From assembly GCF_003574395.1 (NCBI RefSeq), contig NZ_QMJY01000077.1, positions 1 through 64,000 on the forward strand: a DNA stretch of 64,000 bases, given 5' to 3'. The notes under the pieces were generated by a model that worked only from the letters and a program-made list of their open reading frames with translations, was not told the origin of the DNA and did not search any database. Positions within the stretch are counted from its first letter, which is position 1. Each line of letters begins with the position of its first letter. The translations under genes and the position numbers were made by a program. This document shows positions 2,154 to 57,828 of this stretch, piece after piece. Origin of the DNA: Tabrizicola thermarum (GTDB lineage: Bacteria; Pseudomonadota; Alphaproteobacteria; Rhodobacterales; Rhodobacteraceae).

Positions 2154-2198
2154 CCGATCTCCTGCGGAAATCGGACCGGAACGCGTGCCGCGTTCCGG
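2154..2198. repeat. Twin-hairpin element A
   Basis: Two adjacent hairpins directly after trpA. The first (2154-2174) pairs CCGATCTCC with GGAAATCGG around a TGC loop, with one mismatch. The second (2176-2198) pairs CCGGAACGCG with CGCGTTCCGG perfectly around another TGC loop. No T-tract follows. The geometry matches four other twin or triple hairpins in this window, although here the loops are TGC instead of TTCGAA. It may act as a 3' end or transcript-stabilising structure for trpA. Confidence 0.6.
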
Positions 2199-10388: not shown

Positions 10389-10574
10389 CGGGCACTCCCG
10401 GCCACGCGATGGCAGCGGCTGGCCCTTCCAGCAGGACGTCCCTGCGGCTTCGGGCGCGCGAAGCCCCCTTGCGGCAGCCGTCACGGGCCGCGATCAGAAG
10501 TTAAGAATTTCCGAAGGCCCGCAGCCAAAAGATTGATTTAAAAGGATCCGGAAGCCTGCCCACGCGTGGACCGA

Positions 10575-21077: not shown

Positions 21078-21122
21078 CCGATTTCTTCCAAGAAATCGGT
21101 CCGGAACTTTCGAAAATTCCGG
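21078..21122. repeat. Twin-hairpin element B
   Basis: It lies between the convergent suhB and metR genes. The first hairpin (21078-21099) pairs CCGATTTCTT with AAGAAATCGG. The second (21101-21122) pairs CCGGAA with TTCCGG and TTT with AAA across one mismatch, around a central TTCGAA. The first stem resembles the first stem of elements A and D. Confidence 0.65.
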
Positions 21123-32285: not shown

Positions 32286-34892
32286 ATGCCAGTCGTCGTC
32301 GTCGAATCCCCCGCCAAGGCCAAGACAATCAACAAGTATCTTGGCCCCGACTTCACGGTTCTCGCCTCTTACGGCCATGTCCGGGACCTGCCGGCGAAGG
32401 ATGGCTCGGTCGATCCCGAACATGGATTCGACATGCTGTGGGAAGTCGCCCCCGAATCGAAGAAACACGTCCGCGCCATCGCCGAGGCGCTGAAGTCCGA
32501 CGACACCCTGATCCTTGCGACCGACCCCGACCGCGAGGGCGAGGCGATCAGCTGGCACCTGAAGGAGGCCCTGCAAGGCAGCCTGAAGAAAGGCAAGAAA
32601 GTCGCCCGCGTCACCTTCAACGCCATCACCAAGGACGCCGTGACCAAGGCGATGAAGGAACCGCGCGACATCGACACACCGCTGGTCGAGGCCTATCTCG
32701 CCCGTCGTGCGCTGGACTATCTGGTGGGCTTCACCCTGTCGCCGGTCCTGTGGCGCAAGCTGCCGGGCGCGAAATCGGCGGGCCGGGTGCAATCGGTCTG
32801 CCTGCGGCTCATCGTCGAGCGCGAGATGGAGATCGAGGCCTTCAAGGCCCAGGAATACTGGACGGTGAAGGCCGTGTTCCGCACCCCGCGCGGGCAGGAG
32901 TTCGAGGCCGGGATGGTCACTCTGGGCGGCAAGAAGCTGACCAAGTTCGACATCCCGACCGCCACCGCTGCCGAACTGGCCGTCCAAGCGGCGAAATCGC
33001 GCGATTTCAAGGTGATGGCGGTGGAATCGAAACCTGCCACCCGCAATCCCTGGCCGCCCTTCATGACCTCGACCCTGCAACAGGAGGCAAGCCGCAAATA
33101 CGGCATGGGCGCCAAGCAGTGCATGAACGCGGCACAGCGGCTCTATGAGGCGGGCTACATCACCTACATGCGGACCGACGGGATCGACATGGCGCCCGAG
33201 GCGGTGATGGCCGCCCGCGACGAGATCAGGCGGCGGTTCGGCGAGGCCTACGTCCCGGATTCTCCCAGGATGTACAAGAACAAGGCCAAGAATGCTCAGG
33301 AAGCACATGAATGCATCCGGCCGACGGACATGGGTCTTGGTCCCGAGAAGATCCGGGTCGAGGAGGACCAGCGCAAGCTCTATGACCTGATCTGGAAGCG
33401 GACGATTGCCAGCCAGATGGCCGCCGCGCGGCTGGAGCGGACGGCGGTGGACGTGGCCTCGCCCGATGGTCAGGTGGGGTTCCGGGCCAATGGTCAGGTG
33501 GTGCTGTTCGACGGCTATCTCAAGGTCTACGACCAGGGCCGCGACGACCGGCAGGAGGGTGAGGAGGACGAAGAGGGCCGCCTGCCGCAGGTGATGCAGG
33601 GCGAGGCGCTGGACAAGGGCGCGGTGACGCCAGAGCAGCATTTCACCCAGCCCCCGCCGCGCTATACCGAGGCGACGCTGGTCAAGCGGATGGAAGAGTT
33701 GGGGATCGGGCGGCCCTCTACCTATGCCTCGATCCTGACCACGATCGTTGACCGGGAATATGTGCGGAAGGAGAAGAACCGTCTGATCCCCGAGGACAAG
33801 GGGCGGCTGGTGACGGCGTTCCTGGCGAACTTCTTCAAGCGCTATGTCGAGTATGATTTCACCGCCGATCTTGAGGCGGAGCTGGACGATGTCTCGGCCG
33901 GAGAGCGCGACTACAAGGACGTGCTGGCCCGCTTCTGGCGCGACTTTTCGGCTGCGGTGGCCGAGACGGCGGACCTGCGCATCGGCGAGGTGCTGGAGAA
34001 GCTGGACGATTTCCTGGCCCCGCATCTCTACCCGCCGCGGGCGGATGGCGGCGATCCCCGGATCTGCCCGACCTGCGGGACGGGGCGGCTGCATCTGAAG
34101 ACGGCGCGCTCGGGCGGGGCCTTCATCGGCTGCGGCAACTATCCGGAATGCCGCTACACGCGGCCGTTGGCGGGGGATGCCGAGAGTGTGGCCTCGGACG
34201 GGCGGGTGCTGGGGCTGGATGAGGCGGGCAACGAGATCAGCCTGCGGGCGGGGCGGTTCGGGCCCTACGTCCAGCGGGGCGAGGCCAGCGAGGCCAATCC
34301 GAAGCCCGACCGGGCGAGCCTGCCGAAGGGGTGGACTCCCGATGGGCTGACTTTGGAGCGGGCGCTTGCCCTGCTTTCCCTGCCGCGCGAAGTTGGCAGG
34401 CATCCCGAGGATGGCGTGCCGGTCGAGGCGGGGATCGGGCGGTTCGGGCCCTATGTGAAGCATGGCTCGGTCTATGCGAACCTGCCGGAGGTCGAGGAGG
34501 TCTTCACCATCGGGATGAACCGGGCGGTGGAAGTGCTGGCCCAGAAGGCGAGCCGGGGCCGGGGCAGGGCCGCCCCTGCGGGGCCGCTGAAGGTGCTGGG
34601 GGCGCATCCGGACGGCGGCGAGGTCCAAGTGATGCCAGGCAGATACGGGCCCTATGTGAAGTGGGAAAAAGTGAACGCGACGCTGCCGAAGGGGGTGGAG
34701 CCGGAGGCGGTCACTCTGGAGGAGGCGCTGGCCCTGATCGCCGAGAAGGCGGGGAAGTCGGGGGGGAAGAAGAAGGCGGCTTCCAAGGCTCCGGCGAAGA
34801 AGGCGGCGGCCAAGCCTGCGGCGAAGAAGGCCCCAGCGAAGGCGGGGGTGAAGAAGGCGGCTCCGAAGAAGCAGGCGGCCAAGGCAGAGTAA
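32286..34892 (+). CDS. topA: DNA topoisomerase I
   Basis: An 868-residue type IA topoisomerase that relaxes negatively supercoiled DNA. The TOPRIM domain has E7 in VVVVESPAK and the D80-x-D82-x-E84 triad in TDPDREGEA. The catalytic tyrosine is Y294 in YMRTDG. A four-cysteine zinc-ribbon motif (CPTCG ... GCGNYPEC) follows, then TopA C-terminal GPYV repeats. The last 60 or so residues are an Ala/Lys-rich disordered tail (AAAKPAAKKAPAKAG), which probably adds nonspecific DNA binding. The ATG at 32286 begins MPVVVVESP. Confidence 0.97.
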   Translation: MPVVVVESPAKAKTINKYLGPDFTVLASYGHVRDLPAKDGSVDPEHGFDMLWEVAPESKKHVRAIAEALKSDDTLILATDPDREGEAISWHLKEALQGSLKKGKKVARVTFNAITKDAVTKAMKEPRDIDTPLVEAYLARRALDYLVGFTLSPVLWRKLPGAKSAGRVQSVCLRLIVEREMEIEAFKAQEYWTVKAVFRTPRGQEFEAGMVTLGGKKLTKFDIPTATAAELAVQAAKSRDFKVMAVESKPATRNPWPPFMTSTLQQEASRKYGMGAKQCMNAAQRLYEAGYITYMRTDGIDMAPEAVMAARDEIRRRFGEAYVPDSPRMYKNKAKNAQEAHECIRPTDMGLGPEKIRVEEDQRKLYDLIWKRTIASQMAAARLERTAVDVASPDGQVGFRANGQVVLFDGYLKVYDQGRDDRQEGEEDEEGRLPQVMQGEALDKGAVTPEQHFTQPPPRYTEATLVKRMEELGIGRPSTYASILTTIVDREYVRKEKNRLIPEDKGRLVTAFLANFFKRYVEYDFTADLEAELDDVSAGERDYKDVLARFWRDFSAAVAETADLRIGEVLEKLDDFLAPHLYPPRADGGDPRICPTCGTGRLHLKTARSGGAFIGCGNYPECRYTRPLAGDAESVASDGRVLGLDEAGNEISLRAGRFGPYVQRGEASEANPKPDRASLPKGWTPDGLTLERALALLSLPREVGRHPEDGVPVEAGIGRFGPYVKHGSVYANLPEVEEVFTIGMNRAVEVLAQKASRGRGRAAPAGPLKVLGAHPDGGEVQVMPGRYGPYVKWEKVNATLPKGVEPEAVTLEEALALIAEKAGKSGGKKKAASKAPAKKAAAKPAAKKAPAKAGVKKAAPKKQAAKAE

Positions 34893-34976
34893 GCGCCGCG
34901 CGCGGCGCCATTTTCCAGCCCAATGAAATCAAGAGGTTGGTTGCGGGCCTTTACCCGGGCTTAACTTTTTGGCGTG
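34893..34976 (+). repeat. Post-stop repeat element (copy 1)
   Basis: The sequence right after the topA stop matches that after the methylmalonyl-CoA mutase stop. The best block, 34926-34954, is identical to 52228-52256 at 25 of 29 bases and includes AAATCAAG-R-GGTTGG and TTTAC. It starts 33 bases after the stop codon, against 35 in the other copy. Confidence 0.6.
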
Positions 34977-35066
34977 GCACTTCGGGGCGGCTCGTCGCGC
35001 AGTTCGCGCTCTCCTCTCTGGGGTGTCGTACCGATGAGGACGCAGGGGTCCCTCCCGTTCGGCGGG

Positions 35067-35112
35067 CCAAGACTTTTCGAAAAGTCTTGGCAAAAGTTTT
35101 CGAAAACTTTTG
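35067..35112. repeat. Twin-hairpin element C
   Basis: Two abutting perfect palindromes lie between the convergent topA and choV. The first (35067-35090) has 12-base arms CCAAGACTTTTC and GAAAAGTCTTGG. The second (35091-35112) has 11-base arms CAAAAGTTTTC and GAAAACTTTTG. Both centre on TTCGAA. Their perfection in unrelated sequences suggests selection for structure, perhaps bidirectional termination. Confidence 0.8.
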
Positions 35113-35125
35113 CCCCCGGTGTCCG

Positions 35126-36154
35126 TCAGCCGCGCGGGTTGATGAGCTTGGCGATCAGCCCCGCCGTCCGAACCATCCCGAGGTTGCGGCCGTTTTCCGT
35201 CACCACCAGTTCGGCCACGCCCTGCGCCATCAGGTCCATGATGTCCTTCACAGGCGTTTCGGCATCCAGCGCGCGGGCATGGGCCGAGGCTTCACCGGCC
35301 TCCATCACGTCGCGGGCGGTGAGCACCCCGAGCGGGTTCATGTGCGCGACGAAATCGGCCACATAGTCCGAAACCGGGTTCGCGATGATCTCGCGCGCGG
35401 TGCCGCATTGGACGATCCGCCCGCCCTCCATCAGCGCGATGCGGTTGCCGATCTTGAAGGCCTCGTCGAGGTCATGGCTGACGAAGACGATGGTGCGCTT
35501 CAGCTTCTGTTGCAGGTCCAGAAGCTCGTCCTGCAACTTCGACCGGATCAGCGGGTCAAGCGCGCTGAACGGTTCGTCCATCAGCAGGATCGGCGCTTCG
35601 GTCACGAAGGCGCGAGCCAGGCCCACGCGCTGCTGCATCCCGCCCGAGAGGTCGCCCACCTTGCGGTCGACCCATTGCGACAGGTTCACCAGCTCCAGCT
35701 GCGCATCGACGCGCGGGCGGCGCTGGGCGGGGGGGATGCCGGCAAGCTCCAGCCCCAGGCCCACGTTTTCGCGCACCGTGCGCCAGGGCAGCAGGCCGAA
35801 CTGCTGGAACACCATGGCGACGCGGGTCGCGCGCAGGCGGCGGAGCGTCGCCGGGTCGGCCTTCGTCACCGAGACCATGTGGTCGCCGTCCAGCACCCGC
35901 ACCTCGCCCCTGACCACGGGGTTCAGCGCATTGACCCCGCGCAGAAGCGTGGACTTGCCGCTGCCCGACAGACCCATCAGCACCAGGATCTCGCCCTCGG
36001 CTACGGACAAGGTGCAGTCGTGCACGCCCAGCACCTGGCCGGTGGCCTGCTGCACCTCGGCACGCGACTTGCCCTGATCCATCAGCGGCAGGGCGGTTTC
36101 CGGCCGGTCGCCGAAGACGATGGAAACGCGGTCGAATTCGACGGCATTGGTCAT
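35126..36154 (-). CDS. choV: Choline/betaine ABC transporter ATP-binding protein
   Basis: A 342-residue ABC ATPase of the ProV/ChoV group. Walker A is GLSGSGKST (61-69), the signature LSGGMQQRVGLARAF, and Walker B ILLMDEPFSALD. It has the N-terminal extension usual in ProV-type proteins and one CBS-like C-terminal region (PVKDIMDLMAQGVAELVVTENG). It overlaps choW by 4 bases, in an operon with choX and choW that lies divergent from betI. Confidence 0.9.
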   Translation of the reverse strand: MTNAVEFDRVSIVFGDRPETALPLMDQGKSRAEVQQATGQVLGVHDCTLSVAEGEILVLMGLSGSGKSTLLRGVNALNPVVRGEVRVLDGDHMVSVTKADPATLRRLRATRVAMVFQQFGLLPWRTVRENVGLGLELAGIPPAQRRPRVDAQLELVNLSQWVDRKVGDLSGGMQQRVGLARAFVTEAPILLMDEPFSALDPLIRSKLQDELLDLQQKLKRTIVFVSHDLDEAFKIGNRIALMEGGRIVQCGTAREIIANPVSDYVADFVAHMNPLGVLTARDVMEAGEASAHARALDAETPVKDIMDLMAQGVAELVVTENGRNLGMVRTAGLIAKLINPRG

Positions 36155-49435: not shown

Positions 49436-49458
49436 TGGAATGCCGGTCGGGCCGGGGA

Positions 49459-49526
49459 CGATCTCTTCGAAGAAATCGTATCGGAGCCTTTGAAGGCTCC
49501 GGCCCGGAATTTTCAAAAATTCCGGG
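49459..49526. repeat. Triple-hairpin element D
   Basis: Three hairpins between the convergent pccA and the DUF4174 gene. First (49459-49478), CGAT-x-TCTTC pairs with GAAGA-x-ATCG with one mismatch. Second (49482-49501), CGGAGCCTT/AAGGCTCCG. Third (49503-49526), CCCGGAATTTT pairs with its complement. Similar in style to elements A, B, C and E. Confidence 0.75.
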
Positions 49527-52192: not shown

Positions 52193-52270
52193 GTGCGCCG
52201 CGCGTGGTCAGTTTTTCTGCGCGAGGAAAATCAAGGGGTTGGCTGTGGGCGTTTACGGTCTGGTCATCTT
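52193..52270 (+). repeat. Post-stop repeat element (copy 2)
   Basis: Begins directly after the mutase stop codon. The block 52228-52256 matches 34926-34954 at 25 of 29 bases, and the preceding GCGCCGCGCG-rich stretch is also similar between the copies. Shared position relative to the stop codon suggests a 3'-UTR role. Confidence 0.6.
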
Positions 52271-57333: not shown

Positions 57334-57377
57334 CAAAACTCTTCGAAGAGTTTTGCAAATTCCTTCGAAGGAATTTG
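57334..57377. repeat. Twin-hairpin element E
   Basis: Two abutting perfect 11-bp palindromes: CAAAACTCTTC/GAAGAGTTTTG (57334-57355) and CAAATTCCTTC/GAAGGAATTTG (57356-57377). Both centre on TTCGAA, and GGCC flanks the pair on both sides. It lies between the small DUF6324-like gene and ppx, both on the minus strand. Confidence 0.8.
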
Positions 57378-57751: not shown

Positions 57752-57828
57752 GCCGCCTTAGCTCAGTTGGTTAGAGCACCAGATTGTGGATCTGGGGGTC
57801 CCCCGTTCGAGCCGGGGAGGCGGTACCA
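57752..57828 (+). tRNA. tRNA-His (GTG anticodon), CCA encoded
   Basis: A full cloverleaf can be drawn: acceptor GCCGCCT/AGGCGGT (with a terminal G-T pair), D arm GCTC/GAGC, anticodon arm CCAGA/TCTGG with anticodon GTG at 57786-57788, T arm CCCCG/CGGGG with loop TTCGAGC, discriminator A73, and an encoded CCA. The base before position 1 is T, so there is no encoded G-1, and the discriminator is A instead of C. This matches the unusual tRNA-His known from most alphaproteobacteria. Confidence 0.97.

Follow-up and report, generated by a model that had tools for sequence, protein, structure and literature searches.

A probable REP-like family of paired, non-identical hairpins at gene 3' ends in Tabrizicola and other Rhodobacteraceae

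Twin palindromes between topA and a choV-like gene

The stretch of DNA that we analysed (64,000 nt in full, the window) comes from a genome of 3.65 Mb whose closest named topA matches are Tabrizicola. Element C of the window, at 35067-35112, is formed by two perfect 22-bp palindromes with TTCGAA centres and a single G between them; CCAAGACTTTTCGAAAAGTCTTGG (35067-35090) and CAAAAGTTTTCGAAAACTTTTG (35091-35112) are both perfect palindromes. These centres are AT-rich by contrast with the window, which has 67% GC. A preliminary description had placed the twin palindromes between the convergent genes topA and choV, and both their perfection and, from the gene coordinates, their location are confirmed (Table 1). 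The choV name comes from that description; the Pfam match of the product is ABC_tran. At gathering score, Rfam gave nothing in the window except one tRNA. The tRNA gene lies near the element at 57334-57377.

Four further sites with tandem hairpins had been listed. All of them exist, but 49458-49526 holds three hairpins, one of those at 2154-2198 is poor, and the pair at 21078-21122 is only near-perfect. Convergent junctions are found only at 21078, 35067 and 49459; the contexts of 2154 and 57334 are co-directional. The TTCGAA centre described for most stems is exact in 6 of the 11 hairpins at the five sites.

Table 1. Elements, neighbouring genes and other features of the window
Feature	Position	Strand	Context
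topA	32286..34892	+	stop 175 nt from element C
Element C, palindrome 1	35068..35089 (22 nt)	.	arms reach 35066-35091
Element C, palindrome 2	35091..35112 (22 nt)	.	
choV-like ABC transporter ATPase gene	35126..36154	-	stop 13 nt from element C
Class I element, two abutting perfect 22-mers	57334..57377	.	9 nt past stop of DUF6324 gene (- strand)
Class II near-perfect pair	21078..21122	.	inositol-monophosphatase-like gene (+) / lysR (-), 9 and 11 nt from their stops
Class II triple hairpin	49458..49526	.	biotin-carboxylase-type gene (+) / DUF4174 gene (-)
Degenerate class II pair (one poor, one good hairpin)	2154..2198	.	14 nt past trpA stop
Second 3'-end repeat	34893-34990	+	
Second 3'-end repeat	52193-52270	+	
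Second 3'-end repeat	10480-10574	-	
tRNA gene	57752-57825	+	Rfam match

The five sites comprise two class I and three class II elements, the one at 2154 being degenerate. Class I consists of two CAAAWNYYTTC-GAARRNWTTTG palindromes, which abut in most elements (gap 0 in 106 of 128), and class II of two or three hairpins such as CCGATTTCTTCGAAGAAATCGG, CGGAGCCTTYRAAGGCTCCG and CCGGAATTTTCGAAAATTCCGG. In relatives there is also a class III, with class I-like arms and a 4-base loop that replaces TCGA or TTCGAA. Class IV is formed by long imperfect hairpins on CTCGTCG...GACTTCGTC...CTCCTCG, which occupy the same junctions in other species (L302, L315, L325, L336, L337, L339, L341 and L348) and are found at G000:C8:10396 and C8:194323. 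The stems had been described as different in sequence; they do vary, but a small set of spellings recurs, with CAAAATCC, CAAATTCC, CAAAAGTT and CAAATCTT accounting for 46, 41, 35 and 30 of 256 hairpins, respectively. CTTTTCGAAAAG occurs 23 times in the genome, and its reversed control 0 times.

Tandem palindrome pairs are far beyond chance: 860 kb (24% of the genome) contain 20, whereas three order-3 Markov copies averaged 0. A GTAG-tagged REP next to a further hairpin makes up one of these 20 and falls outside the paired-hairpin family. The excess of isolated perfect hairpins, counted in the window alone, is mild (6 against 0-4 in 10 order-3 Markov sequences). For searching other genomes, class I was defined as CA-N6-TTCGAA-N6-TG occurring twice with a gap of 0-2, so that six stem positions per arm are free and pairing in N is not required. 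This pattern gives 36 matches in the window genome and is present in all 32 genus genomes, with 1-37 copies in each and 0 for the reversed control in each. Of 119 other genera in the family, 13 have it too; it is absent from one further family member and from 141 sampled genomes of other families of the class. The elements are thus extragenic and dispersed in multiple copies, 69 of 71 examined being outside predicted genes or at a contig edge. A strict class II pair pattern matches only 1 of 120 genomes across the family, which is the own genome; class II is nevertheless plain in genus genomes. Looser copies are carried by plasmids of Leisingera (3 records) and Jannaschia (1), and one Leisingera plasmid copy combines both window spellings in reversed order.

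The window also contains a second 3'-end repeat, in which a GC palindrome just past the stop is usually followed by a short T-run and then by AATCAAnnnnTTGGnnGnGGGC. In the 860 kb, all 8 of 8 copies have the latter at a distance of 33-42 nt from the stop, and most have a GTTnA-N7-TTAAC-like tail reminiscent of CtrA-type boxes. There are 28 copies of this repeat in the genome and 0 of the reversed control.

Stem pairing and non-identical sister hairpins

Pairing was studied in 128 elements, 126 of them among the 462 pattern matches counted (genus and other genera) and 2 from the window; the set includes one non-palindromic, probably chance, match in genome G151. Of the 1536 pairs between free stem positions, 1516 are Watson-Crick, whereas reshuffled arms give 878 on average and at most 939. 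Among the imperfect pairs, G-U (6 of 1536) and A-C (5) are about equally rare and, therefore, wobble pairing gives no RNA signature.

The two sister hairpins of an element are never identical (0 of 128), when re-pairing within genomes gives 15.1 expected cases and a minimum of 5 in 2000. Only one element has sisters at distance 1 (19.7 expected), and the other 127 differ at two or more positions. As orthologous copies recur in the pooled set, the per-genome tests are safer, and sisters at distance 0-1 amount to 0 of 37 in G001 (11.4 expected), 0 of 18 in G016 (5.1), 0 of 12 in G158 (3.9) and 0 of 34 in the other genera including G158 (7.7); if only strict identity is counted, G016 does not reach significance (P 0.11). 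RNA energies for every ordered pair of the 32 perfect spellings give a mean predicted two-hairpin probability of 0.00, 0.04, 0.72 and 0.94 at distances 0, 1, 2 and 3, respectively. The predicted folding switch from one long hairpin to two short ones falls between distances 1 and 2, which on these energies explains the non-identity threshold and suggests that the fold is under selection. In homotypic controls a single long hairpin forms, with a mean of -28.2 kcal/mol, against -15.4 kcal/mol for 58 distinct natural elements, 6 of which have a two-hairpin probability below 0.5.

Since single-stranded DNA should fold like RNA, the energies alone can't separate selection on RNA from selection on DNA. 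Identical sisters would make a long unstable palindrome as DNA, and DNA instability could underlie the non-identity rule instead; the rule might also result from deletion of near-identical tandem copies by slippage. A DNA-level element, such as a cruciform, a protein-binding palindrome or a site that relieves supercoiling between convergent genes, is suggested by the two-strand symmetry, the AT-rich centre in a GC-rich window, the equal rarity of G-U and A-C imperfections and an enrichment in convergent gaps that is given below. We consider it very improbable, since the stems vary pairwise, which binding to duplex DNA would not require, single uncompensated changes occur (2 between genomes G000 and G001), and neither the tight stop-codon spacing nor the operon-internal copies would be predicted. 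The flanks of the 71 class I copies studied for gene context are G-rich on the left side and C-rich on the right. An outer GGGC/GCCC stem, as in a three-way junction, was rejected as covarying, since its pairing (-10.31 kcal/mol) does not improve on that with shuffled partners (-10.23 kcal/mol).

Position at gene ends, turnover and possible role

Gene context was established with a home-made gene caller for 71 class I copies: 19 from G000, 20 from G001, 12 from G158 and 20 from 12 other genera. Of these, 66 lie at 3' ends, 43 in co-directional and 23 in convergent contexts; the exceptions are 2 divergent copies and 2 inside predicted genes, and 1 copy is at a contig edge. The nearest upstream stop is at a median of 7 nt and at 15 nt or less in 48 of the 66, taking for convergent pairs the smaller of the two distances. 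Within the co-directional group, 27 of 43 are at most 15 nt from the upstream stop, whereas uniform placement would put 14.5 (sd 2.7) there. In E. coli, a translational effect has been reported for REPs at this same distance of up to 15 nt (PMC12306157, PMC5082802), and a comparable control, in which the hairpin stalls the terminating ribosome and lowers the output of the upstream protein, would agree with the spacing. Such a stall needs neither two hairpins nor a non-identity rule, and the hairpins are weak and AT-rich, so we find this explanation rather improbable.

The next start codon is also close, at 35 nt or less in 22 of the 43 co-directional copies. G000 and G001 have 13 such tight pairs, and 8 of the 10 examined look like operons: proB-proA, bchY-bchZ, bhcA-bhcB (G000) and the G001 counterpart, IGPD-GATase (hisB-hisH by inference), Complex1_51K-molybdopterin oxidoreductase, two amino-acid-type ABC permeases (under curated cut-offs), and an ABC permease with its ATPase. 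SDR-aminotransferase and AhpC-DUF455 are not evidently operons.

These contexts bear on the earlier suggestion of bidirectional terminators, which would here be intrinsic or hairpin-assisted and common to convergent genes. The elements share with such terminators the 3'-end position and a symmetry by which palindromes work on both strands, and they are enriched in convergent gaps: among own-genome gaps of at least 50 bp, 59 convergent ones hold 9 of the 20 pairs of both classes, while 248 co-directional and 107 divergent ones hold 10 and 1, respectively. Of 15 gene ends with a class I element, 0 also have a canonical hairpin-plus-T site, but this says little, as about 1 would be expected by chance. 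However, the stems are AT-rich and no T-rich tract is found beside the element on either strand, as T does not exceed 0.18 at any of 15 right positions, nor A 0.21 on the left (71 copies). For canonical hairpin-plus-T sites in an own-genome sample, the median distance from the stop to the start of the site is 23 nt in co-directional and 24 nt in convergent contexts, and among 19 co-directional sites just 3 end 35 nt or less before the next start, against the 22 of 43 elements. Moreover, copies lie within the gene pairs named above from proB-proA to Complex1_51K-molybdopterin oxidoreductase. With operon-internal copies and no U-tracts, the elements are poor candidates for full terminators, and complete termination between the subunits of a single enzyme is implausible, even if partial termination may occur. 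Bidirectional termination as a general role is therefore not sustained, and we judge it improbable.

Comparison of orthologous junctions shows both retention and change. Across six orthologous elements of G000 and G001, 2 of 264 positions have changed, each singly and without compensation, and the flanks of the five elements measured show 92-97% identity; the comparison is somewhat biased, as the G001 copies of five were found by pattern. Another 15 G001 regions fell outside the own-genome sequence compared, which has no bearing on absence. Across species, one site can hold different hairpin classes (class III and degenerate cases were scored by eye). The conserved TldD-Tex junction is below 500 bp in 14 cases, and all 12 below 130 bp carry class I (3), class II (5) or class III (4, one imperfect), the class II triples being at L280, L282, L293 and L294; no element was recognised in the two longer cases, L274 and L275. 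Xth-TlpA (14 cases) has class I in 3 plus one degenerate, class III in 1, class IV in 3 and another structure or none in 6, one of them a 2-bp gap. IMP-LysR (12 cases) has class II in 5 and class IV in 7, and class II is found 3' of IMP in both orientations. At TopA-ChoV (23 cases) there are 3 class I, 3 class III (two imperfect) and 17 with another structure or none. Convergent pairs with 0-3 bp between stops and no hairpin element were seen at L076, L111 and L112 (topA-choV) and at L312 (Xth-TlpA).

From these tallies, a hairpin element is often retained at a junction even though it changes in class and spelling, and some junctions do without; the element is missing from so many (17 of 23 topA-choV, 6 of 14 Xth-TlpA) that it is not essential. 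Compensatory changes do occur between orthologous junctions, two paired positions of hairpin 1 differing at topA-choV between the window and L060, and one compensated position at TldD between the window genome and G016. The proposal of selection for structure is strongly supported, as free positions co-vary, sisters are kept different and several orthologous junctions keep paired hairpins despite respelling.

Such turnover, together with recurrent spellings, 1-37 copies across the genus and class II in both orientations, would also suit selfish or neutral palindromes that insert or survive just past stops, with a symmetry due to recent copying or to template-switch correction of quasi-palindromes. 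Yet tolerance alone can't account for a 7-nt median from the stop, the six G000-G001 orthologues are all kept nearly unchanged (partly biased by how the G001 copies were found), and the coincidence of the non-identity threshold with the folding switch argues for selection on the fold. Y1 (RAYT) transposase, the type searched, gave no Y1_Tnp match above cut-off in 32 of 32 genus genomes and 2 weak matches below it, so RAYT-driven spread is unsupported. We regard this origin as unlikely.

The reading that we favour is that of a dispersed REP-like paired-hairpin family working mainly in RNA, as an mRNA exonuclease barrier and intercistronic stabiliser on both strands, to which we give a little under an even chance. 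An RNA-end or processing role, one of those suggested at the outset, fits best. The class I element would provide two non-identical self-complementary 22-nt units a few bases past the stop codon, and the mRNA of the upstream gene would end in, or run through, two short hairpins. These might block 3'-to-5' exonucleases and stabilise the upstream cistron, and inside operons the level of this cistron might be uncoupled from that of the next one. Because the units are palindromic, one element can act on both strands and serve both genes of a convergent pair. The sisters would have to differ because identical ones should form one 20-bp hairpin, a likely RNase III substrate. Among the points against this reading, the hairpins are AT-rich and modest, the mean of -15.4 kcal/mol being for both, and copy number varies from 1 to 37 within the genus. 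A more specific proposal, tentative and on balance not likely, is a two-sided mRNA-end element with a pair of hairpins, each spanning roughly one helical turn and taken from a small codebook, in which selection forbids sisters with fewer than two stem differences (fusion would give one two-turn hairpin), one element serves both convergent mRNAs and hairpin classes replace one another per site.

Relation to known repeats and significance

Klug, in 1987, is said to have tied the intercistronic hairpins of the Rhodobacter puf operon to segmental mRNA stability. They are alike as a hairpin region between cistrons of one operon, but are a single-operon feature and not a dispersed repeat. The RIME of rhizobia are alphaproteobacterial intergenic elements with palindromes, probably longer than the present ones and of other sequence. 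A search of the Rhodobacterales literature, thin on subscription journals, gave no recognised description of a paired-hairpin element.

The statement that no named family fits this description has to be corrected, as REP/BIME elements and, above all, Br-REP1 of Bradyrhizobium are named relatives. E. coli REPs are described as dispersed extragenic palindromes, often a few nt past stop codons (PMC12306157), and the roles named for REPs include 3' exonuclease protection, termination and ribosome stalling (PMC5082802). Class I is like E. coli REP/BIME in dispersal, several palindromes per site and closeness to stop codons, and differs in that there is no GTAG-type tetranucleotide tag beside its palindromes (flank composition, 71 copies) and no RAYT above cut-off in the genus. 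As the RAYT-linked REP tag and the transposase both fail, we call the elements a new REP-like family. GTAG-tagged REP-like palindromes, GTAGGGTGGGC..GCCCACC, do exist as 7 copies in 860 kb despite the lack of Y1_Tnp above cut-off in the genus (G000:C8:60315, 274630, 447404 and 494433; C5:15819, 151185 and 171489).

Br-REP1, an alphaproteobacterial repeat, combines three palindromes and lies where the 3'-UTRs of convergent genes overlap; it has some 200 intergenic copies and is described for Bradyrhizobium and Rhodopseudomonas (PMC5082802). Class II closely resembles this description: its triples also place three tandem palindromes at gene 3' ends, whereas class I has two, and the outer arms of the hairpin CCGGAATTTTCGAAAATTCCGG are the same as in the Br-REP1 central stem CCGGAATCTCGAGATTCCGG as given there (PMC5082802). 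The third stem of class II has, however, another centre and is thus not the Br-REP1 central stem. Class I, with its CAA...TTG palindromes, two hairpins and sisters never alike, has no counterpart in the portion of the Br-REP1 description used here (PMC5082802), a comparison by description only. It is probable that the elements form a new REP-like family, near Br-REP1, that strictly follows a rule of two hairpins with non-identical sisters.

If this is true, the Rhodobacteraceae would gain a REP-like family with a clear design rule, in which sequence evolution tracks a folding switch quantitatively. The element would also offer a compact strand-symmetric part for tuning expression within operons. 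Terminator predictors would be warned that many 3'-end hairpins in these GC-rich genomes may lie inside operons.
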